Below, one piece after another: positions 13,401 to 62,300 of a stretch of DNA of 64,000 nt. The position numbers and the translations under genes were made by a program. Every line of letters starts with the position of its first letter. Within the stretch, counting starts at the first letter, position 1. The notes beneath the pieces are model-generated. The model was not told where the DNA came from and ran no database searches. It was given only the letters and a program-made list of their open reading frames with translations. The stretch is from Agelas oroides (lineage: Eukaryota > Porifera > Demospongiae > Agelasida > Agelasidae): positions 4,617,178 through 4,681,177 of the forward strand of contig OX422203.1 in NCBI GenBank assembly GCA_949130485.1, given 5' to 3'.

Positions 13401-16400
13401 CAAGAGTTCTACTGTAGTTGATGTGTCTCACCTTGTCCTGCAGGTCCACCTGCGCCCCACTGGAGAGGAGCAACTGTACCACATCAGTATCCCCACTGCC
13501 ACTGGCCAACATGAGGGCAGTCTCGCCACTCTGAGGAACAGAATGAGACAAAACAGTCAATATCACATGTGATGAACATGGAACAAGGAAACAATGGAAA
13601 AGTGTACAGTTGCTGTAAGGTACTCATGATCTGAGGCAAATGATACCAGTATCAATCTTGCCTGCTAGTCTACATGTACATGCAGGAGATTAGAGTGGAA
13701 ACATCCAATGCATGTTCCTAATTACTACTGTCTAAATGAAGTGAACCAGACACGATGGCCTGAGGGAATTGAAGGTGTATGCTTCTTATTATCATGAACA
13801 ACATGCAGTGTTTAGCACCTAATTTACAACTAAACACAATAATAATAGCTGCGTGTTCCTAATTACTACCGTCCAACTTTAGCAGTTGGGTTTGTACTTA
13901 ACTCAAGCTGCATTATGCATTATCTGAAATGGGCTGTTTGAAATGTTCAGAGGAATTATAGCTTGTCATGCAGCCCCGGGGCAGCGACTACAAACTATGG
14001 CCTTGGGCATTCTGCACACATGATAAGTCTGGCCTCCTGCAATCCAGTGTGGGGCTAGCTCAGGCTCACCCTAAAAACAACTTGTTGTAGGCTAGACTAG
14101 TTATCTGAGGCAATCAGCCTAATTTAGATGCAGGTCCATTAGGAGCCAGAGAATGGAAATAGGCTGAAATTACTGGCACCACTGGAAATCACTGACATTA
14201 ATACTAAGAGAAACATGTCTCTGGCAAGTGCACACCTTACACACTTGAGCAGAACCATATATTCTGGAGATGTGGTTCTTGGGCATTTGGTCACTGTTAG
14301 GGATAGTGCTACACAGTAGTAATGGTAGCACAAGAGGCAGGCAGTAACATGCTCCTAGTTTACCTGCACTACAGCCCACAAGCTGCAACCCATATTCAGA
14401 ATGTCGGTACACATTTCTCAATATCCCAGATACACCACTGTTGTGATTCTAAATTCCTAACAGAGACGACATACCTCATCTTGCATGTCCACAGCTGCCT
14501 GGGCCCTAAGCAGTTCCTTGACAACATCCAAGCAGCCACCTTTACTGGCCCACATCAGAGCAGTCATTCCTCTCCACTGCACATGGGAGACAGGAAAATC
14601 TGACAGACTTGTCACAACCAAAATTACAAGTTATCACCACCTGCCATAGAGAACAATGGAGCAACAGCTGAAATTCTATACTGCAAGAGACAGTAGGCTC
14701 AACCTATGACATTCTTCATGTAGTAGAGAGATGATATTTTGTCACATTGTGTTGGAGGTTTTGGAAGTGGATGCACCAGACAAAGAACAGTCAGTACTGG
14801 TAGTTAGAGCACCCCTTGGTGAGTCAGTAGTTCAACTATAAATTAATACGAATTTTTGAAAACTACATTAGTTCCAGCTGATCACAGATTTGGGGTAACT
14901 GCTTTGAAATAAGCACATGTACATGGCTGTGTGTTAGTAAGACATAATGTGCTTGATCTAACAGTGACACTCTCTCACTGACCTGGCCTCTGCTGTTCAC
15001 CTCCACCCCAGTACTGAGGAGGAAGACCACATCCTCCAGACAGCCTTCCCGACTTGCCCACACCAGTCCCTCTGACAGCTCATCTACATGCTGGTAGAGA
15101 AATCAAAAAGTATAATTGCATGAGAATACATCTGTACAGAAGCAAGAACAATTTTTGTTTGAGGCAGTGTTGTACTGTTGACAAAATTGAGAGTTATGTA
15201 CTTGTGATTTTACCTTGAGCCATCAGCTTTTTTCATGAACCATAATAGCAAAAACAATCATGTTCGGTATCACTGCAGGGTCTCCTCCCCACACAGACAG
15301 AGCCTAGATATTCCCTAGTCATGGGTGGTTGGCTACATTACCATAGGTAGCACATTGCCTCAGTACAAGCTTCACTTTCTTCAAGGCACGTCATAATCAC
15401 AGTCAATTATTGGTAGTCAGTTGACATAGCTAGTGAATCAAATGTGAAAGGTCCAACATCAGCCACCATGCTGAGCTACACCCACTACTTACTACCATGG
15501 CATGTGTACAATATCCACTTCTATGAGGAAGTTAAGTACTTGACTTGCTCTACATCCTGGTAATTAGGTAGTTGGGGCGAGCCTGGGTGAGCCCCACACT
15601 AGTGAGACTGCATTGGCAAAGTGTGTTTGTAGGCCTATGCTTGTTTGCTTGCTTGCGGCCATATACCGTAAATTTTAAATGAGCACATTCAAATATTTCA
15701 CAAAGATCGATCTTGTGCACGAAGCATGTTACTGCCAGAGTGCAGCGTCGCTGACCCGGAGCGTGGCAACTTACTTTTGTGCTTCTACCGACCATCAACA
15801 GCAGGCCACTCACAGGCGGTACAAATATGGACAACAGTTGAGGTCGCTTGAGGTCAGTAGAGCCAGTCATGCATGGCATGAACGGCACTCAGAGATGCCA
15901 GAAATCCAGCTCATGATTTCATCGTAAAGCTTAGTCCATGCATGTGTAGCTACATTAGCTGCCCTGGCTGGAGACATATGTGATACTTGGCTATCTCAGG
16001 TGAGGACTTAGCTACTTGTGCGTTTTGAAATTTGGCTATAGTGACAAATCCTGCTATATGCCATGACAAGTTAGTAAACCAGCATGCAAAAACACTTTCA
16101 AAGCCCCCTGTGAATGGTAAATGCATGTAGGAGGATGATTGACTTGATGTATGACATAATATCCTGTAGTGTATCAGCTTGCTCAGGCTCGCCCCCACAA
16201 TGTTCTACATTTTCTAGTAATTAGTACACAGGTAGTGGTGCATTTGAATCACCAACACAGTGAGCTATGTACGTACATGGGCCAGTACCTATCCAAACAA
16301 CATACAATCATACCTGATTGATCACTTTAAAGTATTGAATCGAAGAATCAAAAATGTAATGTTGACGCTTGTACTCCTTCAGATCCTCACCATCAATGGT

Positions 16401-17548
16401 GACCTCCTCAATACAGTGGTGCTGTAGGAACTCTGAGTTCATAGCGGCAGCTAAGAAATCAATGGCATGACTCGGAACACTCCACAACAGGTATATGCTA
16501 CCCGGAACTCCCTCCGTGAGATAGAGAGCATAGCAGGCAAGAGATGAACTATGTACCATCGACATGCGATAAACCTCTGCATCTTCCAGTGTGCGATCTT
16601 TCCAGTCTGGACTCAATTTTGTCTTCAGAGCTACAAATTCTGGAGGAATTTTTTGATTCCCTGGGCATGTTTTGACAAAGTCAGTGATCTTTGTTCGTGA
16701 ACGAAATGCTTGCAGAGCTGTGGTGTAAGTGCTCAATTGTTTCTGCAGCTCTTCATCTCCAAACTTGCTGATGGTGTGAGCCAGGAGGCTGCAGTTTAAG
16801 AAGTTCCAGTATCTGTTTAATATGCTGAAGATCTCCTCAACGGTGGTTGCTCTGGCAATTTCAGAAGAATGGTGCTTAAGGAAGTAATCGTGCTGATACT
16901 TCAGTGAGGTTGGGAGGACAGCAACTGAAATTCGAAATTCAACAAAAAAGTCAGATGAAAGTGCTTGCCGTTTGCTGAAGAACACACCAGCTTTTCCCAC
17001 CAGGTCATCATACATGGCCTCAAGTGCAGCAATTTCTAACTGTACCTTCCTCACCCCCTCTGTACTCGTTTCTTCTGTTTGTTCAGTGGGCGGGGCTAAG
17101 GATGAATCTGGATCTATTGCAGTGACATTCTCACACTGAGTGGTCAGAGTTTGGTCAGTGGGCGGGGCTGAGGATGGGTCTGCTGTATGGACATTTTCAG
17201 GCTCAGCTGTCACCAGTAGGGGAGCATCTTCTGACTGGGTGCTGGGAGGCATTTGGTACTTCCTTTTAATTTCTTCTGCAACACGGTTTAGCTTCATTTC
17301 AGAAAGGGCGGTGAGTAGCTTTGTCCACGATGCTTTCGTGTCACTGTCAAGCCATAATTGAAGCATTTCATACTTGCGTTCTTCAACTGTAGAGTGAAGT
17401 TTGGCAAGTTTCTTTAGTTCATGGTAGTCAATTTCCAACCGGATTCCTAATCCCTGCCAGTCATCAACTTCATGCAGTGCATTTGTCAGATTTTTCAGTG
17501 ACAAAGAAGCCCAAGACATCTTTATAGTGCTTTCATAGATATCAGGCA
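10330..17548 (-). CDS. Death-domain / ankyrin-repeat protein, nine exons
   Basis: Nine exons in one consistent reading frame: 17548-16314 (Death domain and helical region), 15090-14983, 14576-14475, 13530-13432, 12729-12631, 12207-12088, 11952-11851, 11549-11448 (seven ankyrin-type repeats, one per exon) and 10488-10330 (charged helical tail). All ankyrin exons are phase 0 and all junctions are GT-AG, giving about 710 residues in view. Death domains recruit partners by homotypic contact and ankyrin stacks bind proteins, so a cytoplasmic signalling or innate-immune adaptor is likely, by inference. The N-terminal order (Death domain first) is the reverse of vertebrate ANKDD1. The start may be MSWASLS within the first exon, or an ATG split across an upstream junction, since the exon opens TG CCT. 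The tail exon ends phase 0 at a donor, so at least one further 3' exon remains unidentified. Confidence 0.8.
10825..11066. repeat. imperfect direct repeat
   Basis: Two copies of about 70 bp (10825-10895 and 10994-11066) share GAGTGCA..GAC, then GAGCAGA, GATTCC, GGAGGCAGCAA and GAGACTGA-like blocks. They lie in the intron before the tail exon of the ankyrin gene. Confidence 0.6.
11448..11549 (-). CDS. ankyrin C-cap exon 7
   Basis: 34 codons, phase 0: DGVTADQVAEVQGHHAVC then EELRKHMHGG. The first helix is normal (T-A-x-x-x-A) and the second ends in a charged, arginine-rich segment, as expected for the last repeat of a stack. A plus-strand frame over the same bases is a shadow. Confidence 0.75.
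11851..11952 (-). CDS. ankyrin repeat exon 6
   Basis: 34 codons, phase 0: GRSAVFYGAEEGDLEVVK then LLIQGGANLSIKDK. A regular repeat. Confidence 0.8.
12088..12207 (-). CDS. ankyrin repeat exon 5 (with insertion)
   Basis: 40 codons, phase 0. DGLTALIHAV and VKALLAAGADVNHQEK form a good repeat, but the turn between the helices carries about seven extra residues (PQIYFLKHDE region). Confidence 0.75.
12631..12729 (-). CDS. ankyrin repeat exon 4
   Basis: 33 codons, phase 0: DGETALMWASGSGHTDVV then QLLLSSGAQVDLQDE. It differs from exon 3 at four residues (D/S, W/L, H/D, E/K), all at or near exposed or junction positions, so the two repeats may already bind slightly differently. Confidence 0.85.
13432..13530 (-). 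CDS. ankyrin repeat exon 3
   Basis: 33 codons, phase 0: SGETALMLASGSGDTDVV then QLLLSSGAQVDLQDK. Nearly identical to the next exon (12631-12729), including the flanking intron, as the result of a tandem duplication. Confidence 0.85.
14475..14576 (-). CDS. ankyrin repeat exon 2
   Basis: 34 codons, phase 0: MTALMWASKGGCLDVVKELL then A-x-V-D-M-Q-D. A canonical ankyrin repeat with T-A-L-M in place of T-P-L-H. Confidence 0.8.
14983..15090 (-). CDS. ankyrin repeat exon 1 (degenerate)
   Basis: 36 codons, phase 0. It reads LVWASREGCLEDVVFLL, matching the A-x-x-G-x-x-x-x-V-x-x-L-L core, and follows the Death-domain exon directly in phase. The usual TPLH is replaced by EGLVWA, so this is a capping-type repeat. 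Confidence 0.7.
15568..16216. mobile_element. possible hAT-type non-autonomous element
   Basis: Imperfect inverted ends GGGGCGAGCCTG..GAGC face each other (from 15574 and back from 16197). The 8-bp string GTAATTAG occurs at 15560-15567 and 16217-16224, as expected for a hAT target duplication, though the outermost bases are diverged. Interior blocks recur, more decayed, at 20795-21215. It sits in the intron after the Death-domain exon. Confidence 0.5.
16314..17548 (-). CDS. Death domain plus helical region exon
   Basis: This 1235-bp exon starts after ATTATTTTGCAG and ends AATCAG|GTATGA. Counting from MSWASLS, residues 8-90 are a Death domain: six predicted helices with LHEVDDWQGLGIRLEI, the Y-x-x-L-x-x-L turn, then MLQLWLDSD, a central WTKLLTAL and a closing VAEEIKRKY. 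Residues 91-150 are a low-complexity linker with two near-identical PPTDQT/PPTEQT blocks. Residues 150-400 are a helical region including YWNFLNCSLLAHTISKFG, a pattern I have seen next to Death domains in other invertebrate proteins but cannot name. Near its end, SIYLLWSVPSHAIDF could be a buried strand-helix pair. A Harbinger-type MITE lies only 66 bp upstream (17615), close to the promoter or first intron. Confidence 0.8.
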
Positions 17549-17614
17549 CTGCAAAATAATGGAGTATGTAGTCATGTTTGCATAACACATAACACATGTA
17601 GTGTGGACCTTTTA

Positions 17615-17929
17615 TGCACCTATCAATGTTATGCCCTACTACTCCCCCTGTACAGGCTACAAGTGGGTCAAGGTGGGGATTTGACTAATCTAAATATCCA
17701 ATATACGGGGCATACCCTAAAATCAATCCCCTTGCAGAAGGTGGGGAATTACTGGGAATTTGACACACACAGTGTAACTGTGCAGTATATGGAAATCATT
17801 GCCATATTCAAGACGTCTTCAGAGGTCATCAAATGCCCAACTATAGGGCAGCCTCTTTTGGTCAAAGCCCCTATTATGCCCGCCATATGCCCGTACAGGG
17901 GGTAGTGGGGCATAACATTGATAGGCACA
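17615..17929. mobile_element. Harbinger-type MITE, copy 1
   Basis: 315 bp with inverted ends TGCACCTATCAATGTTATGC and a 3-bp target duplication TTA (17612-17614 and 17930-17932). A T-W-A 3-bp duplication is the mark of the PIF/Harbinger superfamily. No coding capacity. It is the reverse-oriented relative of copy 2 at 19591. Confidence 0.85.
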
Positions 17930-19477: not shown

Positions 19478-22400
19478 ATGTTGATAACTGACAGCGACAT
19501 GTTTCCAGCAGCCTCCCAAGCAGTTATTCGTCTTCTGGTGCACTTCAGAAAAAAGAAGTTTATGGTGAGTTCAGACGAAAGGCTGGATAATGCGCCTATC
19601 AATATTATGCCCCACTACCCCCCGTACGGGCAGATGGCGGGCAATATAGGGGCTTTGACCGAAGGAGGCTGCCCCTATAGTCGGGCATTTGATTACCTCT
19701 GAAGACATCTTGAATACGGCAATGGTCTCCGTATACTGCACAGTTACACTGTGTGTGTCAAATCCCCAGTAATCCCCCACCTTCTGCAAGGGGATTTGAT
19801 TATAGGGTATGTCCCGCATATTGGGGCAATTGATATTTAAATTAGTCAAATCCCCACCTTGCCCCACTATAGCCCGTACAGGGGGTAGTGGGGCGTAATA
19901 TTGATAGGCGCATAATGTGCATATGGTTGGCTATAAATAGAGCATTCAATTCAAAGTCAGTGAAACGCATCTTATTAAAAAGAAAGCCCAGGTCTTGTGA
20001 TGTAAGTAAAGTAAAATGGTGCTATTTAGTATTCTGATAGCAGGGTAATTCTGACAATGACGTTAATTCCACCGTAGTTATTGTGGAGTTGATAGCAAAA
20101 ACTATTGTTGAAGGTTGTCAGGCCTGCTACATGCACAGCAGTTTTCAGCTTTTTACCTTTGTTATGCTTCAGCTATCCAGTATTAGAAGTTCCCCAGCGC
20201 TGTCAGAATAGCCCCCCTTTACTTTACTGTGCTCTGTGTGATATGGGCTTAGCCACTGAAAACAAGTGAAAGGTTCAACTGCCATTACTCTAAAGAGTGC
20301 CCACCCCCTACTTTTGGTCCTATTGAGTCAAAGCTTACTCTAAAGAGTGCCCACCCTGGAGTGATGACACCGTGAACGGGGTGTATAAAGTGAGCGTGGC
20401 TGTGTCGGTTTATGCAAGGCCACCTTGTGTAAAGAAACTTTCCTTAACATAGCACTTCAGGCTTTGCTTCTCAAAGCTCCACGAGTGGACTTCATAATTT
20501 GGCCATGGGAAGCTGTTGTTGTTTAGAGTGTTGCATGCTGTCAGGACTTGAACTTTGAATGCACATGGCTCGGATGCACATTGTTGTTCGACAAGTTATT
20601 TGCTGTGAACTGATTTGAGGACATTGAGTCGCTGTAAACGTAACATGAGTGGTCTTTCGTGGTTAAATGTAGAAACACTTGAAAAAGTGTCCACCCCCCT
20701 TTTTGGCAAACTTATAAGGTGTTTGACCCATGAGTGTTAATTCTTTCACAAGAAGTGAATGTGGTTACCAGCTCCAGTCATTGAGGAAATTTAAGCCACT
20801 AATGGGACTGCATTGTGTGCGTGTGTGTTTGCTTGCTTACTTGTGTTGACTTACCGTAAATTTAAAGGAGTACATTCAAACATTTCATAAATGTCCATGT
20901 GTACTTCAGCTCCAAGGATGAGAATATAAGTGAAGGGCTACTACTAGTCTTGTATGGCCAGATGTAGCAAGAGTAAAGGGCTATTGTCTAACTGTAGCAT
21001 CGAAAATGAGACAAGCTTCTCAACTGTGGCCCATTACTGACAAGGCAGGCTGCATGCTCATGCACAGATGGCAGAAATTATGTACAGTGATTGAGGTTGC
21101 TTCTGGTAAAGTCCATTCATGAGAGCTCATATACAGCAGAGGTTTAGCTCATGATTTGAGTTTGAAGTTTAGTCCATGCTGTGTAGTCATAGTAGCTGCT
21201 CTTGCTGGATAAATGGCTTCACTGTGTGCCATATTTTCCAAGGAAGATTTTAGTTGCATATATGATTTTCTTGAGAGCATACTCTGAAGCTAGCCTCGTT
21301 CACACTCGGGGAGAGCCTGGGAATGAGGCTGCTCTGCAGCTATCACCCAAAGTTCAGGCTCATCCCAGCATGCCTGTATCTACCAATGAGAAATGCAGGG
21401 CAAGAGTTTATCATCTCCCTGATCAGTGTCACACACCACATTGTATTGTATCCTTGTGAACACAATGGACAAGGACATGTCTACAGGTCAGCTGTTGGTT
21501 GTCAGCTGCCTATGTTCCAGTGTTTACAGGCCAAAGGGCACAAATAGTCTCTCATGACCACGCCCCTCATCTTGAATGTAGTGACTGTCAGTACCAAACA
21601 CTTGTACCACTGTCAACTAAGTGTTTTGGTTAAGTTCAATGTTCACTGGGTTCTATATTAGGAGTGCAGAAGTTCAAATAGTTCAAGTGGCCGATAAAGA
21701 TATGTTAGTTTAGGGGGTGGACACAAAGGGCACATTGTTGATTTTGGGGCAGATGCAGAGGGCACATTAGAGCCCCCAAAGGGCACAGTGCCCTTTGGAA
21801 AAGGCCTAGCAAGAACCCTGCTATGTTCATGTCCAACTGTTGTCTACAGGTGGTTGTTGCAGGTGATGCTACATTCCAAGATGTGAAGACTGAAATTGCA
21901 AGAGTATACCAGGGAATATCATCAGCTAGTCTGGATGAGAGGTATGCCAGAACTTTCTGTCATGTCTGGGATGTTACCATGTTGTAAGCATGAGTCATCA
22001 GTGAACCACACCTCCCTGCTAAGGACAGGCCTAGCTGTTACATGCTGGTAGTTGCCCTTTGTCCAGATCTCATCAGCGATGCTGGGGTGACTGGGAGATG
22101 GGAACTGCTATTTTAGTCTGGTAGCTGCATGTAGGTGGTGTTCTGGATAGGTAGCCCCTCAACTGCCAACAGCCAGTTGTCATGATCACACACATGGGCC
22201 TTAAAGCTATCACTGGTTGGATATCAAGTGCACCTTGTCATTAGGTGCATATTATTTATTAGGCACATGCATAATTTATTAAGTGCATGTGCATTAAATA
22301 GAGTGCACAATAGTCAGCGAGAAATCGAGTGAAAGATAACACAGCACACATGATGGTCATCCTGAAGTCAAAGGGGAACAAGAGGAACACGGGTTTTTCT

Positions 22401-26590: not shown

Positions 26591-26779
26591 GTATGTATAC
26601 TAACAAACAGCTTCATAAGCGAGCTAATATACTGATTGCTGAGTTTCAAGACAGTCCATCAAGGTATTGCAGTCTCAATCTAATCTATAGGCAGCTGTGA
26701 TCTGAAAATCCTTCACGAAATCACCCATTTAGTAAAATCCAGAACACCCCAATGTAGGTATAGGAGGGGTGTATATTAA

Positions 26780-27273
26780 GTCTTTAACCACCGTAGGCTG
26801 TTTACTGGAAGTCTTTTTTAGGCTATGGATACCTTCTTTGGTCAGTATTTCCACTTTTGCTTGGAGCTAGCACTGGAAACTTGAGTCAAAGCTTCTTTGA
26901 CACATTCTCTGTGGGTTCATGACCCTAACCACACCCACTCATTAGTGAGCTTTCAATGGTCGGGGCTCACCGACCAGCAAACACTCTGCCTGACTGAAAA
27001 CTGCCTACAGATCTGGAAATGGTGCCCCTACAGGGGAAGAGGGGTGGTTTCTGTGCCCATTTGTGCTAACAAGGTGAGAAATGGTCCAGCCAGTGCCGAC
27101 CAAGCCTGTTCTACAGCCAGCCAAGGCAGCTACCATGCGCACTGCACCCCGTGCTGAAACCCACCTTTTTTGCTAGCTCAAAACCTATCTTCGAAACGGA
27201 TTGCGCCAACTGATAACGTGCGGCCAAAGTCAGACGATGCCAAAATGCGTCATCAGTGGTTAAGGGGTGTGTA
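26780..27273. mobile_element. piggyBac-type MITE, copy 1
   Basis: 494 bp beginning GTCTTTAACCACCG right after TTAA (26776-26779) and ending near TTAA at 27274-27277. The right end CAGTGGTTAAGG is followed by eight extra bases before TTAA. It aligns over its whole length with copy 2 at 48253. A TTAA target is diagnostic of the piggyBac superfamily. Confidence 0.75.
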
Positions 27274-31329: not shown

Positions 31330-32642
31330 GGATTGGTAATCATAAGCTGAAATAACCCACCTGCTGCTCAGTTCCTTCACCATCGACATCTGTATGTCCA
31401 CCTGTACTTCTTCAACTTGTGTACCAGCTGCTAATTGCTTGCTGACCTCTCAGGTATACCACTCGCTAAACTTGCTCCTTAATTGTCTTTAAATGGCTTG
31501 TTGACACTGAAATTGAGTGGCTGGAACAGGTCAGTGCAGTTGTTTGGGACATGCACCTGAAGGATTTTGTTGTTTTCAGGGAGAGTGCACACTGTCACAC
31601 ATATGTGACCTTTGAAGACATCAAAGATCACGAGGGCAACTTGGTCAGGAGTAGATGATTTCCTGCGAACATTTTCATTGTGCAGTAGAATCACATTCTC
31701 TTGAAGCGTGGTTTCTTCATTTGCCCAATGGTTTGGCGTATGCCATATGTCACAACCATTGGGAAACGTCTGAGAAGGATGGCATCTCTCAGTTTTTCCT
31801 TGGTACAAAATTTGCAGTGGAAGTAGCTCCCCTGAGAGTGTACCTGCAAGTGTGGCTGTGACTTGGCATTTGTCATTAAGGTTATGATCAACTGCGCCAA
31901 AGGCTGCTTTAATATTTCGAAAACCGTAACTGATATTTATGTCAAACAAGTTATAGTCCAACAGCACAGGAACGAAATATTCGGAGAAAAATAAGCTTCT
32001 GTTTAAAAACACCCCAACGCATTCGAACCAGCAACTAGCCCCACCGCTCAAATGCTTTTGCGCCAATTTACTCAGTGACTGTAAAGAGTTCGATCTGAAT
32101 TTTTTTCTGGCATTACTTCACAGTATTAACTAGGTTGGCACGTGAAGATATCTGGCGCTTTATGTATACTTTTAGTAATATTTGTAGGAATTTAGGCATA
32201 AGAAATGCGCTTTGGAGCGTAGAATCTTCAATTCAAGTCCAATTTTCGAGATTTCTTTACGTGCCGCCCTGCTAAATACACTGCGCTACCCGTACAACAC
32301 ACCAGAACACTGAAGAAACACTTTCCTTGCCTTATATTTGGCACAAGGATAAGCGATCTGCTTTTGAAATACGGCAAGGCCTCGAGCATCGCCAGTGAGT
32401 TTAGGGACGCACATTCGTGCAGCGTCCGCAATAAATAATTATTGTGTACTATGTCAACTATAATTGCTTACGTAAACAATTGGCCCATGCATTTCACAGG
32501 TTTCGAACCAGTTGATCGTAACCTTAAGACCAGCAATTTCGACTCTCTTTGCTCCTTCTTGTTCCAGGGTTGAAGAATGTTGATTGAAGTGCAATGTCTC
32601 GAGCTTCGAACAAACGTCCTTAATGCACGCTTGCACGTTCAC
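31330..32642 (-). mobile_element. pogo/CENP-B-type DDE transposase relic
   Basis: Pieces of a DDE_1-type transposase on the minus strand: STLEQEGAKRVEIAGL (around 32,560), DKCQVTATLAGTLSGE and LQILYQGKTERCHP (from 31,876 down), NHWANEETTLQ, ALVIFDVFKGH with the second acidic residue, VPNNCTDLFQPLNFSVNK, and a tail near 31,340-31,440. These match the jerky/Tigger family order. The 5' part with the DNA-binding domain is absent, a stop follows the SVNKPFKDN segment, and the body is split by a 644-bp TTAA-flanked insertion. It is dead. Confidence 0.7.
31880..32523. mobile_element. TTAA-flanked MITE inside the pogo transposase
   Basis: Inverted ends GGTTATGATCAACTG (31880) and CAGTTGATCGTAACC (ending 32523), with TTAA at 31876-31879 and 32524-32527. 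The transposase reading frame on either side is collinear when one TTAA is counted, so this is a clean insertion of piggyBac type. The ends differ from the other TTAA family here, so it is a second family. Confidence 0.8.
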
Positions 32643-45100: not shown

Positions 45101-48100
45101 ACAAAATTTATCACTGTATCTACCATAAACTCTGGTTATTAAGTGCACCTTGCTATTAGGCGCATATTATTTATTAGGCGCATGCAGTCTTCCTGGTCAT
45201 GGTATCATTTATTTAGCGCATGTGCAAAAGTACACGATAGCGGCAAGAGGTTGAGTGAAATCCATGGCATCAAGAACACACAGCACACTCGATGGTCATC
45301 CTGAAGTCAACCAAAGAAGAGCTACACAGGTTTTACCTGCTTTTGGCTAACACGTAGCTCGGAAGCCACACCCTTTGCGGCTTACAAGACTAGAACTGAT
45401 TTCTCCCAAGCGTGGAGCCCTGCATGAATACACGATGGATCCAAACTACGCTCTCTTTGAGGAGGATGGAGTCTTCTGATTTTACGTTGTACTCGCCAGG
45501 TGAGCGTGTCTTACGATCTACCGAACAGCACCAGAAAGCTGCGTGTCATGTCTACCTGTTGGGCGTGGCTTTAATTATTGAAGCCTTTATTTAGCGCATA
45601 TCCTCTATTAGGCGCATGTTTGCCTACCACTTACGCTCATAAGCGCATGCGCTTATTAACCAGAGTCTACGATAATTCGATGTCCTAGTCTAATCCTTCA
45701 GACAAGGAGCTACTATTCCAGACTTGATCACAACATATCTCTAAATGTTATAGCATATTTGATATACTGTATAACCTGAAATATTGGCGGTCTTTAAATT
45801 TGTCGATTTGGGTGTAAAGAATATTGGCGGAATTGGCAGTTGCCCCCCAAGCAGCGTATTACGTCATCATAAATATTGTGCAACGCTATTCACCTCCTTT
45901 ATTTTTCATCAGGGTGTAGGGGAGAGTCTGGGAATGCAGTTAGACATGGCTCTGAGCAAGTGTACCTGTATTTGGTACAGTTCAAACATTTAACTTGAAG
46001 CAACTTGGCTTTCTCTTTGTTTGATTTGGTTTTGTTTTTCTATGAGTTGCTTGAAGGCTTCATCTTAAGAACGATAAAGGTTCTTTGTTACAACATCATA
46101 CATGTCTTTGTTGTGTGAGCTAGGGTGTGTGCCCATGAATTTGCATGAATAGCCCTACAAGGTTTATGAGTGCACATATATAGGGTGTTAGCTCTTTTGA
46201 TTGGTGACCACAGAAAATCTTGAGCCCCATTCTCTGGCTTGGCATTCAGAGTTTTTAATTACAGCTGGTGAAAGATCATCGCCTCCTGAAAAGAAGAGCA
46301 TCTTCAGCTGTATTAGTTTGTCTCACAGATGCTGGATTTCACTTGATTCATTGCATGGGAAGTTTGGAAATGATGATCATGTTGCGAAAAACTTTCAGCT
46401 TTTCAGAACCAGTAAGCTATCTTGACTTAAGCGATTTTGATGTCCTGCCTACATAAAACTCGATGCCAGGAATTCCAACACCTTTGAAAAATTTTTTTAT
46501 GTGTTTTTGTACTTGGTAATATCAAAACTTGGTAATATCAAAACTTGGTAACATCACAACTTGGTAACATCAAAAGTTGGTAATATCAAAACTTGGTAAC
46601 ATCAAAAGTTGGTAATATCAAAACTTGGTAACATCAAAAGTTGGTAATATCAAAACTTGGTAATATCAAAACTTGGTAACATCAAAAGTTGGTAATATCA
46701 AAACTTGGTAATATCAAAACTTGGTAACATCACAACTTGGTAACATCAAAAGTTGGTAATATCAAAAGTTGGTAATATCAAAACTTGGTAACATCAAAAC
46801 TTGGTAATATCAAAACTTGGTAACATCAAAACTTGGTAACATCAAAAGTTGGTAACATCAAAACTTGGTAACATCAAAACTTGGTAATATCAAAACTTGG
46901 TAATATCAAAACTTGGTAATATCAAAACTTGGTAACATCACAACTTGGTAATATCAAAACTTGGTAACATCAAAACTTGGTAACATCACAACTTGGTAAT
47001 ATCAAAACTTGGTAATATCAAAACTTGGTAACATCACAACTTGGTAATATCAAAACTTGGTAACATCAAAACTTGGTAATATCAAAACTTGGTAATATCA
47101 AAACTTGGTAATATCAAAAGTTGGTAATATCACAACTTGGTAATATCACAACTTGGTAATATCAAAACTTGGTAATATCAAAACTTGGTAACATCAAAAG
47201 TTGGTAACATCAAAACTTGGTAATATCAAAACTTGGTAATATCAAAACTTGGTAACATCAAAAGTTGGTAACATCAAAACTTGGTAACATCAAAACTTGG
47301 TAACATCAAAACTTGGTAATATCAAAACTTGGTAATATCAAAACTTGGTAATATCAAAACTTGGTAATATCAAAAGTTGGTAATATCAAACTTGAAAACC
47401 ACTTAAGTTTGTCAATTGAGTTTTGTCCAGCAGGACATCTGAAACAGATGAAAACATATGTACTGCTAGCAACATCTATCTCTGTGGCATAGCCAAAAAC
47501 CTAGATGGTACTCAATATGAAAGTTGACTCCATTTACGTCAGTACTGTGTAGTCTTTGAACTTCTGCATTGATGTCACTCTAAGCATTGTTTACAGATTC
47601 ATACTTCTTTGGCTCCTTGAACACAGCAAAAATGTGGTTTCCTTCACTTGAGCATGCTTTTTGACCCTCATTTAAGAGCTAGAATGTATGTAAACATTAC
47701 TATGTGTACCGTAGTCTCGCGAAAAAGGGCCCATGGGCGGAGCACCTTGCAAGTCTGCCAAAGAGGGGGGTGGGTGCTCTTTCGGGTGTTTCCGCATTTA
47801 ACCATGAAAGAGCACCCATGTCATGTTTACTGCGACTCGATCTCCTTGGAGCAAGTGAGTGGACAAGCAATAGTGGGCAACAGAATAACCAGCGGCTTTG
47901 AAGTCGAGTCCTGACGGCACACAACACTCTGAATGGCACCACATCACCGTGAGCATGGTGTAGCTCGCAGTGCACACCGCATTAGCTACGTCCGTCTACG
48001 CAAAGATGCCTTGTAGCAACTTTCGGTTAAGTAGTACACAAAGTTTCTTACCTCAGATACGCATACTGTGCTTCTCAAACTCCACGCGAAGCTCGCTCCA

Positions 48101-51100
48101 GGGTGGGCACTCATTCGAGTAAACTTTGACCCTGTACAGGATATTGGGCGAAAAGTAGGGGGTGGGCGCTCTTTCGCGAGACTACGGTAATTTCATATCA
48201 ATCCTAGTTTCATCTCCAGACAGCTTTAATCACAAAGCATAATCCCTATTAACTCTTTAACCACCGTAGGCTATTTACTGGAGGTCTTTATTAGACTATG
48301 GATACCTTCCTTGGTCCGTATTTCCACTTCTGCTTGGAGCCAGCACTGGAAATGTGAGTCCAAGCTTTATTGACACATCCCCTGTGAGTTCACGACCTTT
48401 GCAACACCCACTCATTAGCGAGTGTTCAATGGTCAGGGCCCTCCGACTAGAGAAAAAAGCTGCCTAAAATGCCAGAAATGGAGTCCCTACAAGGTGAAAG
48501 GAGCGTTTTCTACGCCCATTTGTACAAGAAAGCAGGCAAATGGCCCTCCCAGCATTGGCCAGGCCTTTTCTACAGCCAGCTGCAACAGCCGCCATGCACT
48601 GTCAGCCTGAGGGGTGCACCCACCCACCTCCCCCTGTCCCACCCTTTCTGCTATTGCAGAACCTATCTTCAAAACGGATTGCGCCAACTGATAACATGCG
48701 GACAAAAACTGACGTGAAAAAGCGTCATCGGTTGTTAAAGGATTAAGTCCAGAATCAGATCCTGAACATAAGTGCACAATCTGTCCTCAAGGGATTGTTG
48801 AAACCCCACTCTTCAATGTGATGTTGGCCGGATGTCTCAGTGACTGTTTAGCTCTTTGATATGTTGTTTTAAAAGCATCATGTTGAACATGTCAACATCT
48901 TCTTCACAGTTACGTGTTTCTTTTCAAAGCTGAATGGTTCGTTGTGTCGCAACTCAATCTTCTCGATTTTCCTTGTCCTAGTGTTCTTCACTTCTACAGA
49001 AAATGATCTGTATCCTTCCTTCTCAAGCCAAAACAGTGAATCTTGGCACTGGTGCAACCAAACATTTTTGAGTCCACATTGGTGAGACTGTGAGTATTCA
49101 TTGCGATGCTTGGTTTTGTTTTCAGTTCAAGTTCCAAACATAGCCTCCTTGCCTACTTCTTGTGACAGAAAGCAGACCTTTATATTCCAACTTTCTATTC
49201 TTACTCTGCGATGAATCAAGCTGCTCAAACAGGCTTGCAGCTTTCTCTGTTGAAGCTCTTAATAACTTGCTGCTGTAGACTGTCAATCTTCTGCTGCATT
49301 GCTGAGACTTGGAGAGTTCCTACGACAGTGTAGTGATCGCGTACTCAATCAGATAGGCAGGATTGCTAAGGATCACGGAATACACTGAGACGACATGAAC
49401 TCGTGTACATCACTGACCAAGTACAACACGCATGCGCACACATAATAATGATGACATAACAATATACATAATTCAACACTACATCTCCCTCCCAGGAGGG
49501 TTTTCAGTTATGTCCAACTTGGATCGAGTCTATCAGGAGGTCTCGCCATGTGACCTGTTTTCGATCGTGTTTCTCGTGAGTTTGCCGGACTTGGGGTTTC
49601 ATTGTGCTCATTCAGTTCAGTTTCTTCCCCATCCGTCTCTTGTACAGGCAGCCTCACGAGGTGCTTCCGATTTCGACGATATGGCCCATCGGAGGTCTCG
49701 ACAACATGTGATCGTGGTGCTGTCTCATCCACAACGATCCCAGAAGTGTCTTGGTCAAGGATCCACACTGCGTCACCTGGCTCTAACAAAGGTAGTTCCT
49801 TAGCTCTGTGGCGCTGGTCGTGATTTCATCTCTGCCTCTCCTTAATGTGGTGATCTTTCTCCAGCTCTGAAAAGTTAACCACTCTTGGAGTTCTCTGTTC
49901 TCGTACCATAGGGAGAGTGGTACGGAGATTTCTGCTCATGAGCAGTTGAGCCAGGCTGAACCCACACTCCAGAGGGGTGCTTTGGTATGCAAGGAGTGCC
50001 AGATAGTGATCTCCTGACTTCTTCAATAAACTTTTTATAGTCTTGACTGCCCTCTCTGCCTCCCCATTGCATTGGGGGTGGTAGGCGCTACTGGTAATGT
50101 GTTCGAACCCACATTGTCGAGCGAACTCTGCGTACAGTTCAGCAGAGAATTGTGGTCCACTGTCACTCACAATGACTTCCGGGATCCCATGACGTGCAAA
50201 CATCGAACGACTCCGAGGTCTGGTTGGACAGTCTTGCAATCTCGATCCACCTTGAGGAATAATCAACGATGAGTAAGTAAGTCGACTTGTTCCACTCAAA
50301 TAAATCAGTCCCAAACTTCTGCCAGGGGAGTTGTGGAAGAATGGAGGGTCAAAGTGGCTCTGATCCCTGTTTTGTGTTTCTGAGGCATTCCTGACAGCTC
50401 TTCATAGTGTCCTCTAACCGTTTGGATAGCCCTGGCCACCACACTGAGTATTTAGCTCGCTCCCGACATTTCGTAATCCCTTGGTGTCCATCATGGAGTT
50501 TGCTGAGTATACTAACATGGAGAGAGGCTGGTATCACAACTCGTGAACCTCTCATTAGAAGGCCTTTTTCAACTGTCAGCTCTGCTGCTACTGCGTAGTA
50601 TGGCTTTACTGACTCTGGCATGTCATGCTGTTCCTTTTACGCAGCTCACAACTCCCATCCTTTCCATGCGTTCCAGCTCGGCCTTAACTTTGGGTAGCAT
50701 TGGAATGGCAACACGCCGTGGGGTAGTGAGTGCATAGGGTTTGGCGTCCTCCTTGAGCTGAATCTTGTACTCTCCTTCAAGTTTCCCAAGTCCATCAAAC
50801 AGTTTTGGGAACTCGTGTAGCAGGTTTTAGTTCGACTGCACTGCGTTCACCCTGCTCACCAGGTCAAGGGACTCAATAGCAGGGCGTCCAAGCAAGGCAC
50901 GACTGAGTCTCCGCACTACAAACACATCCTCTGTCACTTGTTTGTCTCCATACCATAGGGTTGCAACAAACTGTCCTTTCACAGGCAGTATCTTATGGCC
51001 TGGGCCACTAAGGATTTTCTTGGCTGGCTTGAGACGGGCACCTGGTATGCTCTTGAACACCTTATGTGGGATCACACTCACATCTGCCCCGGTATCGATT

Positions 51101-54100
51101 TTGAACTTCAGGGGTTTCCCATTCACTGCCAGAGTAATAACCCAGGGGTTTGCATGCTCGGAGTCCTGCACAACCCCTATGAAAGCATCCTGGTCTGCGG
51201 ATTCAACCACACTGACATTACGACTGACTTTAGAGCGGCACATAATCTGGAAGTGTCCCCTCTTGCCACACTTGTGGCACTGCTCTTCCCTGGCTAGGCA
51301 TTGTTGCCGGCTGTGCTCAGGGGATCTCCCACACCTAGAGCAGGTTCTTGGGAGGTGTATCCTTCTTTGGCTTCCTCTTGAAGTTGCCATAGGACCTGTG
51401 GAATCACTTTTCCAAAGCATCAATGACTTGCTCCTCCTGGAAATCATTCCTCAGGAGGGTTTGCTGCTGTTTGACAGACTCTGACTCCCTTGCTGCTTTG
51501 ACTGCTTTGTCCAGATTCAAGTCAGGGTCTAGTTGCAGCTTTCAGACAGAGCAGCGTTACGAAGTCCAACAATGCGGTCGTGTATCATCTCATTCAGAAG
51601 TGTCCCATAACCACAGTGCTCCGATAGGCGGTACAAGTCCATAATGAAATTGTCGATGGGCTCGCTCTCTTCCTGTTTTCATCTATTGAATCTCGCTCTT
51701 TCTAAGATAACATTCTTCAGTTTCACGAAATAGCCCTCGAATTTGCTGAGTACCGTTTGGTATTTCTTACGGTCAGCGTCCGACAGCCCAAAAGATCTTA
51801 AAATGTCGTCGGCCTCGTCCCCCATACAATAAATCAGCGTATGTACCTGGATGGATTCTTCCTTGTCGCTCAGTCCAGATGCATATCGATAGCATTCGAA
51901 TCGCCGAGCCCACTTGGGCCACTCCTCTGGTCGGCTGAAATTAAAACGCTCTGGTAGAGGTACTTGGAAGGCGGCCATTTTGTTGCCTTGTGGTCTACTC
52001 GTTTAGGCTCTGCAGAGTTTCGCTTCTCTCAAATGACATTCGTTCCATGCTCTGGGATGGGTTGAGGTACCGCTGCCACCGTGTAGTGATGGTGTACTCA
52101 ATCAGATAGGCAGGATTGCTAAGGATCACGGAATACACTGAGACGACATGAACTCTTGTACATCACTGACCAAGTACAACACGCATGCGCACACATAATA
52201 ATGATGACATAACAACATACATAATTCAACACTACAGACAGTAGTTGTAACTTCCAATTCTGCCCTTGCCATGGTGCGTGTCCTCTCGGGCGTTTCTTTC
52301 AGGTGATTAGCCCACCTGACCAGCACTTTATGCAACCTATCAGTGTACTATATCACGATGCCAAGTCGATGCTGTATATTCTCAATTCACAACAGTGGAT
52401 GCCGGATTTGTTCCACCATTTCGTTTGGTACGAAATTACTACTCCACTAACATGCATCTGTAGTTATAATGCAGTTGCATATGGTTTAGCTCACTGTCAG
52501 GGATGTACATGGTCAGAGGGTTTCAGTAACTCTGGAATAGCTAGGTTTACGTAGCTGTGGAGTGTGCTGTTGTACTTCATGGAATTTACTGTGTGATAGT
52601 TAGCTATAGATGTGGATTGGGTCATCCAGTATGCCAGATAGCACTGATCACCCTTATCCATGACTTTCGTCTCAGCTTTTTCCTCCTGGTGCACCAAAAC
52701 AGCATGGAAAACACATTGCAATAGTGAAAGTCATGTACTGTAAGTTTCCGAAAATACGCCCCCTTCGAGCAAACACCCTCCCCCCACTTTAACCCCCAAG
52801 TTATTACATAGGTATTTTTCCCCCGCAAAATACCTATGTAATAACTTGGGGGTTAAAGTGGGGGGAGGGCGTTTGCTCGAAGGGGGCGTATTTTCGGGAA
52901 CTTACAGTACATGACTCTGGGAATGCTTAGTGAGCTTTTGGTTTAGCTCCGGAGTTCGTAAACACGTACGCACAAAATTTCTGTCGCCTCGTTTTCTGGC
53001 CAATGCTAAGGTTTTTGTTGCTCGCACTGGGAACGTGAGCTTACTCGGAGTCGTCCCCCGTTACCACAGACGATGCAAGTTGCTTCGGTGCCTCTTGGCT
53101 TAATATCAACGCAAGCGCCGCTGATTTCCTATAGTACACGTTTAGCGAAGCTGCCGTTCTTTCACAAAGCCGCGGCAGTCGTCGTGATTGTCGAATTTGC
53201 GCGTATTCAAGATACAAAGAATGGAGGGAGGGGGCATATGCACGAGACGAACTGAATATTCGAGCAAACACCCCCTCCCCACTTTTGTCTAAAAGTAGTG
53301 TGCAAAAAGGGGGTGCGTATTTTCGGGGGCTTATGGTAAATGACTGGTTGTAGCTTTTCATGAAAGCACATAGCCAGTAGGTCTAGTACCATGGTAACTT
53401 CAATAAAGATTGGCCGAGAGTGCAAATGGAGCACCTGGCCAAACTATACATCACCTGATTTCTCACACCTTGGGTTACGTTACTCTTGGTTTGAAATTTC
53501 TAAGACTTACATGCAGGTAAAAGTCAAAGTTCATGTACTCGCCATTACTTAACTGGGTGACAGTGATTAGCATAGGTAACTTAACTTACATGGCTTTTGA
53601 TGAGAGGAATCTGGTGGTGATGTGGAAAAACTGACATTTTGTTACTGTACAAAGTTATTTCATAAAACATGTTATAATTTCCTGTACTAACCAGTAGTAA
53701 AAAGGTGCTAAATAGAGTGCTAACCATTTCTGTAAAAGTCGACCAAACTCCAGTCTACCCATCAGTAGTATTTTATTGACCCATAGGATAATAGACCATT
53801 TGATTTGCTTTGATTTGTCAGTAGCCTCGGCCCCCACCCAGTGAAAGTTTCCCGCAATATGGTATATGAATTTTTGCATGTCTTTATCGTTGTACGCAGA
53901 GAATCTACTGAAGTGGAGGTGTGTGGAAGAGAGAAGAAACCAAAATGGAAGAAAAGAAAGTACAAATCTGCAGCTGTTATAGTTGACTCAGACTCCTCTG
54001 GTGAAGATAAAAAACAGAAGCACCCCAAGAAAGAGCGACAAGAAGTTGAGTGTATATATCCTGGTTTTTCTTCAGGCTGGAGCTCTGAAGAAGAAAAAAC

Positions 54101-57100
54101 TCCTGGAGCTAATGCACACACCAGACAAGAATGTCCTGAAACGTTTGACTCTGATGAAGGAAAAACTTCTGGAGGCAATGAATGCAGACTCATCAAAAGG
54201 CAAGAACTTGCTGAAACCTCTAACTTGGACGGGAAAAAAAATTCTGGGGGCAATGAATTCAGAAGCATTAAAAGACAGCAAGTTGCTGAAACTTCTAACT
54301 TGGAAGAAGAAAGGACTTCTGGAGCTAATGAACACAGACTCATTGAAAGGCAAGAAGATCTTAACACTCCTAACTTGGAAGAAGAAAGGACTTCTGGAGC
54401 TAATGAACACAGACTCATTGAAAGGCAAGAAGATCCTGAAACTCCTAACTTGGAAGAAGAAAGGACTTCTGGAGCTAATGAACACAGACTGACTGAAAGG
54501 CAAGAAAGTGTTGAAATATCCAGCTCTGAAGATGAAGGGATTTCTGGAAGTGAGGAATGCATATGCATTGAAAGGCAGGAAGATGCTGAAACCTCAAATT
54601 CTGAAGGAGAAAGAACTTCTGAATCTAAAGTTGTTGAAAGGCAAGAACTTAATGAACAGTCTAGTTCTGAAGAAGAAAGAATATTCACAGATAATGAACA
54701 CAGACTTGTTGAAAGGCAGAAACTTGCTGAAACTTCTAAATCAACAAGCACTGAAGTGAATAGAACTGCTCTGTTAAAAAGAAAAGCGGAAGTGATTAGT
54801 CAGTCACCTTATGGTAAGCTTGTTGTTTGTCCACTTTGGAGATGGGTATAAAGTATAATCACGTTTCCACACCTTCACTAGCTGTCACTTACAGTGGGCG
54901 AAAAAGGAGAGTGAAAGCCTTGGGTGAATCTGTCATGTGGGTGATGCCATTGTCTACCTATATATATATATATATTTTTTTTTTTTTCTGATTTATGCAA
55001 TATATGCAAAGGGCAGAGCAGTTAGCAACCTAATGCTATCAGAAGAGCTAGCCCGAGAATACAAAACAAGACAAGTAAAGAACTAGACAGGACAAAACAA
55101 ATAATTACAGACCAAGTGACCAGCAACAAGGGAGAATTTAAAAAGAAAGTGAGGCTAATTTAAGCTTGCGCTTAAATGAAAAGGTTGTGGGAGCACAGAC
55201 AATACTGTCAGGTAAACAATTCCATAGGTGAGTACAGCTGATAAAAAAAGATGATTGATATAAGGAAGTTCTGGCAAAAGGAGTGACGAGAGGGTAGGAG
55301 TGATGGTGCCTTAGATTAGGATTTGGGTGAGGGGTGAGAAGGGAGTGTGGTAAGATAGAGTGGCCCGAGAGGATGATATATATTGTTAGACAGAAGGGGG
55401 TGAGGTCTGATGGATCCTAAGTAGGGATGAGGCTATTATGCTCAAAAATTCACCCTTTATGCTATGCTAGAATGCTTCAAACTATGTCCGATTATGCTCT
55501 TGGTTTGTCCCTATTATGCTCATGCAGCAAGTTAATCAATTAATAGAATTTAGTTAAAACTGCGCCCCCAAGATGCTCACACCAACAAAATTAGCACTGT
55601 TGATCCACCCTTTAGAGTGTAGTGCTACTTAGCTGCTTTTATCATGATCTTTGTCAAAACAAGCTTCACCACAAAGGAGGAGTCAGACATGAAACATCCC
55701 TTATGAATAGAAAGGCACACCTCAAACAGCTTCATACCCATGCGCGCACAGCGGAAGCACTTTACGCGGTCAATGTTGCCTTCCGATTATTCCCGATTAT
55801 GCTCGCTCTGCAGAGCTACCGATTATTCTGGAAACTATGGCCCGCATATTAGCCGCATCCCTAATCCTAAGACCATTTCTGGTAGTATCCAACAAATGGT
55901 TAGAAGCCAGTGGCCAATGGTTGAAACCCAATGGTTGAAACCCAATGGTTGGAACCCAATGGTTGGAACCCACTGTTGTGCAAAAAGTGTTGCTCGTTTT
56001 TTAGGATGATGAAATGCACTGGCAAAATAGAATCCATCAACCTCTACCTCTCTGTAGGTAGACTTTCACATCATTCTTGAGTTGTACCTGTAAGTGGCCA
56101 AAAAGGAAGGCTAGAGAACAGTAGGAAGTCACTTATCCAAACTTCAGGTATTTGAACATGTCTGTTAACTGAATTCATTTATCCCAAGCCACACCCACTA
56201 TGTTTGGCTACTGTCATCAACCGGAAGTCGGCTTTAGCTGTTCAAATGGCCGATATCGAGTATTGAAGGACTCGCTTCACCTGATGTATAGTAGCATGAG
56301 AGATAGGATACTTCTACAGGCATCACGATGAAGGTAAAACAAAGTGAGCCACTGGGTACTGCATGCACAAGAAACTGAGCGACCGCTTTAATTACAGACT
56401 GTTATGTACATTCTAGTGCTTGCTACGTAGTAGCCAGGGGATGCATTGCAGACCAATGACAGCTTGACACTAGTATGGCATGCAGCTTGCTCATACTCAT
56501 TTACAGTTTGCATCATGTGGGCGGATATATTGGCTGCATACTTCAGTAACTGTTATATCACATCTCAGTCATCTGAGTACCCTCTGGTTAACATGTTCGG
56601 ATAAGTGACTTACTACTGTGTCTGTGGTAAATCCATTGGTAATTCAGAGTTCAAAGAACCTGATTTGTTTGTGTAGACAATGCAGTGTTAATTACCCACA
56701 ACAGCCACAAGACATACCAATTTCACCCAAGCACATAACCCCCATTTTGGCAATTTGACCGTTTCGTGGGGTTCCTTCTTGTCAACTACCTTATCAACTG
56801 CCTCAACCAGATGTCACGTTGAATAGTCATTGCTCTCATGGTAGCAGCTGCATAATTGAAGTGCTGAGCAAAACAGATACCATCCTCCCACTGGTAGTAT
56901 ACTAGACTACAATTTGATACCTGCTATGGAAAGTGACAAATTTGTTTACAAATACCAAATATGTGTACGTGTTTATGATGGAAGATATGTTTTTGTTTTA
57001 CATGACTGTAGATTCTGAGAGTTCCCCAGAAAGCACTGATGAAAGGCCCCATAAGTTCATTAAACTATCTCCACTTTCTGCCCTAGTGGGATCATGTAAG

Positions 57101-59357: not shown

Positions 59358-62300
59358 TTAAGCTTCAATCTCATGATAAGGATCCTCATTGTGCACTTCT
59401 AACTTGCTAAAGGCAGACAGATGTGCATAACCAGCGAGATTTTCCAAGGTCTGTGACATCAAGCTGGCCAGCTTTGTGAACGTTGGCCTTTCGTTGGGAT
59501 TCACATGCCAGCACTTGAACATGAAGAGGTAGCTACGGAATAAAAAAAGAAGTAATTTAGCCTTCAATTCTCATGGTGCATTTAATGTTAGTGTATTGAT
59601 ACCCAGGTTCTGTTACACATCCACCAAACCTGCCATAACTTGTAATTACCACTGCCAACAAAGGTGTATTTCATAAGAATAAAATAATAATGCCTCAAGA
59701 CTGAACAAGAGCTGAATCATGAAAAAGGATCGCTAAATCCACACAAGAAAATGAGATTGGTCAAGGTTGGATCTACACTATACAGTTGTAGCCCCACTTC
59801 ACCACAATAACACAAGCTATGTATTTAATTGAAGTATATGCATAGCTAATGAGCAACTGTCTCCAAATACAGACACAAAAAGGCTTCCTTGTGGTTATGC
59901 TTTAGTATACTAACTGCGCCCCAAGATGCAAATATGCAGAAACTAACTTTTGCTTGCTTTGTAGACTTTAGTAAAGCTTTTGATAATGTCAAACATAGTC
60001 TACTATGGAAGAAATTGCAAGACATGCAATTTCCTGATAAAATGTTGCAGATGTTGAAGTGCATATACAAAGAAAATACCAACTGTGTGAGAGTGAATGA
60101 GAGTTTCACTAAACCCTTCAGGGTCTCAACAGGTCTACGGCAAGGGTGTGTGCTATCTCCAATTCTGTTCAATTTGTTTGTAAATGACCTCCCAGCTTCT
60201 ATCGCAGCCACTAATGAAGGGGTTCAGTTTGGAGACAGCACAATATCCAGTCTGCTATGTGCCGATGACCTTGTCATGATAGCAGATAGTGAACAGGCCT
60301 TGCAGACACTACTTGGGAAAGTCCATGAATGGTGTTCCTTATGGAGCATCAAAGTTAACAGCAACAAGTCGGCTATAGTCCATTTCCGCCTACGTTCTCA
60401 CCCCCTAACTTCAGCAAGTTTTACACTAGGAGAACTGGTTATTCCAATCTCCAGTCACTATATATATTTAGGCATACCTCTTGATGATCACCTGACTTTC
60501 CAGATGGCTGTGCATACACGAATTGAAAAACCCTCTGCTCCTTTTATGCCCTAGTAGGTCACCTAATGAAAATAGGTGGCCCATCCTATAATGTCTACAA
60601 AAGGCTCTTTGACTCAATGGTGGCTCCCATACTAGATTATGGAGCACCTGTGTGGTCCAGATTCTGTTCATTAAGGGAAGTTGAGAAAGTGCAAAACCAA
60701 GTTTACAGGTTCTTTCTGGGAGTCGGTAGCAAACATCCACTGGCAGCTGCATCTGGGGATATGTGTTGGATGCCAACTTCATGCAGACATAAACTGGCCA
60801 CAGTTGCATTCTGGTGTCATCTCGTACAAATTGATAACAACAGAATCTGCAAGAAAGTGTACATAGAACGCAAGAGGCTTACCGAAGAACAAAACCAAGA
60901 CAACTGGGCAAGTCAAGTCAAGCAGACTTTAACTGGGTGTGGCCTGCAATACTGGTGGCACCAGAGCTCCTGTGAGGGGCTCTCACACAGTGAACTCCAG
61001 CATGTAGTCACCTGCTGTCTCTTTCGCCTGGAAAAAGAGAGATGGCAAACTGAGGTTTCATCCAAACCAAAGTTGATAAAACAGAATATGGGAAAACAGA
61101 AGAATATGTACAGAAAGTTAGAGTAAAATCTCACAGATCTCTGCTGGCACGACTGAGAGGAGGAACAGCACCACTACAAATTGAAACTGGTAGGTACATC
61201 GGCCTCCAAGTAGAAGAGAGGATATGCAGGTCATGCAACACACGGCAGGTGGAAGACGAACAGCATTTCTGTGTGGGGTGTCCAACTCTGGAAGAGGCTA
61301 GAGCCCCCCTTCTGCATCTCTTGAACCTCCATCATGTGGACACAGGAGCACTCTCTGACGAGGACAAGTTCATCACAATCATGCAGAGCCCAGACGGTAG
61401 AACAGCCAAACTTCTTTATAATATGTTTTTAAAATGTAACTCATAACTATGTTGTTAATATTAGTGACTTGTAAGCCGTGGTGTCGGCTGGGAGTGTATT
61501 ATTATTATTATTATAATTGAGAAAACACACCAACATAGGTGTAAGAGACAAACAACTAAATTAAAATGTAAATACACTCATGTCACTGAAATAAAATTAT
61601 AATACATAAGCCAGAAGAAGCAGTCATGAACTCCAATCTGAGTCAATACATATATAGTGCCATGGTGTACCTACCCCGTGAATTAAAATCTTGTTCACCA
61701 ACAAGTGTGGGAAAATGGTGCTGGATGGTGAGATCTTTAATGGGTCAGTAGACCTTATACTGTAGACCAAACAGTTAATGTAAAGTTTTTCTCATAGAAA
61801 CTGTAGTGTAAAGTTATAACTCTTGCACAATCCTTAGGCCTATGACATAAAGCCTCCTAGCTTAAAGCAATACTATTCAGCTAAGGTACTACTGTTTTGG
61901 GCAATTTGGGGTATAGTTTAGAGTTGATTAACTACAGGATATATGTATACGTGTGCATATTACAAGTGTAATCATCGTACAAAACAGATTGTTTTAACCA
62001 CAGTCATTACCATTGTTGCAGACAATCTGAAAAAAATAGCTAGTGGTATGAGAGGGTCATGACTACCATGCGTCACTACATTGTAGTGATAACCAAGACT
62101 CGATTGCTACACTTTGCTGGGCTCACAATTAACACAAAGTGTGTACATGTACCTGTATGCATTACCCTTTCATCCGAAAGCTTTATTATTTTAATTGTTT
62201 AAAGTAACTGAACTGTTCATCTATTTAGCTGTATATCAAATACAGTTCCAGGTCCTGGACCATTTATGTGGGACATTCAACCATCCAGGGCAAGGAAGCT

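Follow-up and report, generated by a model that had tools for sequence, protein, structure and literature searches.

Side-by-side insertions and a 16-bp minisatellite in a likely single, decayed host gene of the sponge Agelas oroides

Does an interrupted locus in the genome of the sponge Agelas oroides record a stack of successive insertions, and into what kind of gene were these made? The window analyzed here, a stretch of 64,000 nucleotides from contig OX422203.1, holds between 46.1 and 52.35 kb an array of 55 units of 16 bp, a TA-flanked element, a TTAA-flanked MITE, and a GACAG-flanked LTR element, set among short host pieces that we call A to E. Along the minus strand, the order is E, LTR element, D, TTAA element, C, TA element, B, array, and A. 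The original prediction described this arrangement as a four-layer stack inside one transposon gene. That reading was rejected, as 0 inserts were found within another insert and all of them lie side by side. Taken as a whole, the locus is best explained by a dead host gene, probably of a RAG1-related type, three parallel insertions into it, and an amplified array, an account that we consider fairly probable.

Borders and contents of the mobile inserts

The element at 49329–52236 (minus strand), between host pieces D and E, has the borders that were predicted for it, with 155-bp LTRs (49329–49483 and 52082–52236) and target-site copies of GACAG on both sides (49324–49328 and 52237–52241). The element was read unaltered, with no joining or mending. 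Pfam searches placed the protease families RVP (9e-6) and Asp_protease_2 (1.9e-6) over the cut-off and found Integrase_H2C2 at 7.8e-15, with the integrase core rve at a sub-threshold 2.3e-5. The likeness to Ty3/gypsy elements consists of TG...CA LTRs, a 5-bp target duplication (4–6 bp being the size expected for this group), CCHC and protease pieces, and then H2C2 plus integrase core, a set of domains that does not decide between Ty3 and BEL. Where Ty3/gypsy elements carry reverse transcriptase and RNase H, in contrast, the order here is protease then integrase, and separate searches of 15 minus-strand frames (5 + 10) detected neither RVT_1 nor RNase H. A missing reverse transcriptase would mean that the element borrowed enzymes for its movement or lost this part after landing. 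By its coding content, it appears to be a defective LTR retrotransposon, that is, a non-autonomous or dead derivative. Its protein-like sequence presumably crosses over near 50.63 kb from where the RT region begins to the integrase region. Elsewhere in the window, Pfam identified RVT_1 at 59853–60551 (E 1.5e-27), within a set of LINE-like remnants with overlapping frames (59853–61443).

The element at 47707–48189, between host pieces B and C, was likewise confirmed as TA-flanked, with TA on both sides and 27-nt inverted ends that differ by 2 mismatches. When the region 45600–53400 (array left out) was shuffled by dinucleotides, an inverted pair of 27 nt with 2 mismatches or fewer appeared in none of 60 shuffles; the real region has 140 window pairs at this limit, a count that includes a hairpin at 52729–52916. 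A TA duplication together with terminal inverted repeats is the pattern of Tc1/mariner-type (TA) MITEs, although the superfamily is not settled by it. One end of the TA element was searched for in IMG/VR and in GTDB contigs, with 0 matches in each. A stretch at 20292–20364 is 77% similar over 82 nt to one of the ends and is perhaps of the same family.

Between host pieces C and D, the MITE at 48253–48742 is bounded, as predicted, by TTAA on both sides (48249–48252 and 48743–48746). A second copy, 74% identical, is located at 26774–27266. Both copies begin at TTAA on the left; on the right, the second copy extends about 7 bases further before a TTAA. The TTAA duplication and CTTTAAC-like inverted ends are shared with piggyBac-type MITEs. 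The element has no transposase, and by this signature we take it to be piggyBac-like.

Several other features surround the locus. The hairpin at 52729–52916, upstream of host piece E, is near-perfect, with 90-nt arms that are 98% complementary and 8 nt apart, and related stretches were seen at 53259–53285 and 53311–53345. An open frame of 345 codons at 53814–54848 (plus strand) runs over a 75-bp tandem array (54165–54628, 78% matches) and had no Pfam family over the cut-off. A DDE_1 transposase remnant lies at 31482–32117 (Pfam E 1.4e-5), and a 458-codon frame at 16311–17684 (minus strand) contains a death domain (Pfam E 4e-12). Judged by this death domain and the reverse transcriptase, the window reads as eukaryotic, animal-like DNA. 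When the whole window was scanned, Rfam gave 0 hits and the tRNA search also gave 0.

Continuity and kinship of the host pieces

The host pieces all lie on the minus strand. The most upstream piece seen, E (52242–52350), is putative, with a frame that is open as far as the LTR target site. Stops interrupt all three frames of D (48747–49323), B (47395–47706), and A (about 46091–46510, the most downstream piece), and C (48190–48248) reads LSGDET in one frame. The pieces were proposed to be collinear parts of one gene, with a coding frame that reads through when the TA element is ignored. We joined the 75-nt flanks at each insert and compared the frames with those of 5000 equally long random joins taken from other parts of the window. 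The LTR site gave one fully open frame and the array gave two. No frame was fully open at the TTAA and TA sites, with longest runs over the junction of 30 and 26 codons, respectively. At least one fully open frame was present in 25% of the random joins and two in 1.7%; runs of at least 30 codons occurred in 83% and of at least 26 codons in 94%. The read-through claimed for the TA element is thus at chance level, its 26-codon run being matched or beaten by 94% of random joins. It is uninformative, and the one at the LTR site says little, since random joins do as well. The array junction alone stands out, and random joins do as well as the other three sites. An open frame across so short a join says little, and we rejected read-through as proof of one gene because random joins are equally open.

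The host pieces could be chance frames between unrelated repeats. The frames are short and broken, and three of the four junctions show no more continuity than chance would give, both of which fit this explanation. Against it stand the array junction, where two frames are fully open (an outcome of 1.7% of random joins), and collinear matches to a protein family, though these depend on the window. We regard chance frames as very unlikely.

The family in question is taken here to be an invertebrate transposase family believed to be RAG1-related. Its consensus was composed after the window had been read, so its matches are not independent of the window and serve as a lead. On the minus strand, the consensus matched piece D at 48872–48753 (40 residues, E 1.2e-6, with a risk of circularity), piece B at 47684–47499 (E 5e-8, not independent of the window), and piece A at 46506–46108 (E 3e-7, with the same dependence). 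These matches follow one another in order, and the best reversed-query E was 1.2. The consensus also matched amphioxus RAG1L (6b40) with an E of 0.0035, in the part that spans the CxxC and the second aspartate. Among the acids of a D-D-E triad, LSGDET in piece C is a candidate for the first aspartate; the region of the second may be what closes piece B, although the aspartate itself is not evident there, and the third acid is not confidently readable. The in-order match to this RAG1-like consensus suggests that the pieces likely belong to one common host gene. This part of the original prediction is favored by the consensus and has no support from Pfam or the PDB.

Thirteen host-region queries (5 + 8) found 0 Pfam families above the cut-off, and the 'transposon-type' nature ascribed to the host was not confirmed by them. 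The PDB yielded no relevant match, the sole listed one (E 1.8) being unrelated. Across Pfam, PDB, and window searches, no direct similarity of host pieces to RAG1, RAG1L, or Transib was found. Mouse RAG1 did not match the host frames (best E 1.6 at 46339–46401, on the opposite strand), nor did the amphioxus RAG1L 6b40 fragment, whose best match in the window lay elsewhere (E 4.6). The likeness to RAG1/RAG1L/Transib DDE transposases lies in a host-fitting consensus that matches amphioxus RAG1L, whereas the host pieces have no direct match and no RAG2-like partner or termini were identified. The consensus itself had 0 matches in Pfam and 0 relatives in plasmids, phages, and IMG/VR. A host piece scanned against IMG/VR gave 5 pattern matches and 0 relatives, and window positions 46000–48000 gave 0 matches among plasmids. 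A GGDWKFLA pattern led to 2 IMG/VR contigs, with GGDWKFLA in none of their long frames; a host piece compared with one of the two (L001) gave 0 matches, and a longer pattern of this type gave 0 in GTDB contigs.

The host may, alternatively, be a decayed ordinary gene rather than a transposon, having received the same insertions. The host pieces match neither a Pfam family nor a solved structure, and neither the ends of a host element nor its target duplication were identified, as would fit an ordinary gene. However, the pieces match the RAG1-like transposase family in order, and the consensus of that family reaches amphioxus RAG1L in the PDB (E 0.0035). We consider an ordinary gene unlikely.

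Part of the host gene appears to have been deleted. Consensus residues 85–205 fall in the gap between the B and A matches, and only about 35 codons of piece B remain past its first match. In one frame, this tail of B (last 35 codons) matches residues 166–184, in the second-aspartate region, better than all of 1000 shuffles. The counterpart of these residues in the window was unseen when the consensus was composed, and the same place was found in the whole-window search, at E 19. Another frame of the tail contains a CxxC-like FICFRC and matches residues 96–122, with 11 of 1000 shuffles as good. The two readings cannot share this short stretch in an intact protein, given that in the mouse RAG1 fragment the CxxC and the second aspartate are 62 residues apart. 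We favor residues 166–184, as their frame stays open through the array and continues as the piece A frame whose match begins at residue 206. Under this favored reading, about 80 family residues would have been lost inside piece B near 47.48–47.50 kb, the array being elsewhere an almost clean interruption, so that the exact border claimed for it within the coding stretch would nearly hold. The less likely alternative, with residues 96–122, would put a loss of about 84 residues at the array and ranks below a loss inside piece B.

The minisatellite and relative timing

The locus had been offered as a relative clock, with the host oldest. Position does place the host before each insert. The inserts are not nested, and position therefore tells only this: the proposed order stood for host before insert and failed for any nesting order among the inserts. 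Divergences were a second proposed means of ordering events, and they served for the LTR element. Its LTRs differ at exactly 4 of 155 positions, where about four had been predicted (95% Poisson range 1.1–10.2 differences, 0.7–6.6%), which dates a fairly young insertion. For the TTAA element, the K2P of 0.29 over 479 sites dates the split of the two copies and not the insertion at this locus.

The minisatellite at 46511–47394, between host pieces A and B, consists of the predicted 55 copies of a 16-bp unit, ACTTGGTAATATCAAA, and 54 of 54 spacings are exactly 16. Three positions vary, each with two states: position 2 (G in 11 units), position 10 (C in 23), and position 15 (C in 7). Outside these positions, the units have 0 differences, and there is no private mutation. 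Seven of the eight possible combinations of the three positions are present, with no significant association between positions (Fisher p 0.33, 1.0, and 0.12). Clustering of like units was rejected over lags 1–8 (smallest one-sided permutation p 0.26), and one of six next-unit tests gave p 0.039.

Had the array been unchanged since the LTR insertion, about 11 changes would be expected in its 880 bp. The probability of none is 1e-5, or 0.045 if the lowest value of the LTR range is used, with equal rates assumed. The lack of private mutations against this expectation indicates that the present units probably postdate the LTR insertion or are subject to continuing homogenization, and the array does not appear to be an old layer. 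In fact, a tandem array within an old element need not be old. The array is possibly an assembly artefact. Its unit had 0 matches in IMG/VR.

Internal tandem repeats are carried by many transposons, and apart from a shared ACTTG nothing marks off the edges of the array. Both points would agree with a minisatellite that was an original internal repeat of the host element. By the family consensus, however, the array interrupts a coding stretch in frame, and we find an original repeat very doubtful.

What the locus may record

Our preferred account, with amplification of the array inside the host gene, involves ordinary events. An old DNA-transposon gene, probably for a transposase distantly related to RAG1, would have died first. 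The dead gene would have gathered stops and frameshifts, lost about 80 codons, and then become a neutral landing ground. Two MITEs, one targeting TA and the other TTAA, and a Ty3-like LTR element would each have entered it a single time, at different points and by ordinary mechanisms. Separately, slippage or unequal exchange within the coding stretch would have amplified a 16-bp unit to 55 copies, which would have been kept uniform. The whole locus is ordinary repeat history and genome decay.

PMC2672092 and PMC6911290 describe the relative clock that is provided when younger elements, with their target duplications, interrupt an older one. The locus resembles such nested or multiply interrupted transposable elements in having an old element cut by younger ones, with target duplications, but its inserts occupy separate places along a single host and give no nesting order among them. 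A multiply interrupted repeat of this kind is a routine record of genome decay.

Deuterostomes, protostomes, and cnidarians are the RAGL groups named in the available parts of PMC7204232 and PMC8355894, where sponges or porifera are mentioned 0 times. The host might be a RAG1-related transposase fossil, perhaps outside the named RAGL groups, that carries a live, freely recombining minisatellite; we hold this combination to be decidedly unlikely. The possible RAG1 kinship of the host is nevertheless a loose end worth following. If the host were RAG1-related, its presence in an early-branching animal would bear on when the V(D)J recombinase's ancestor arose.
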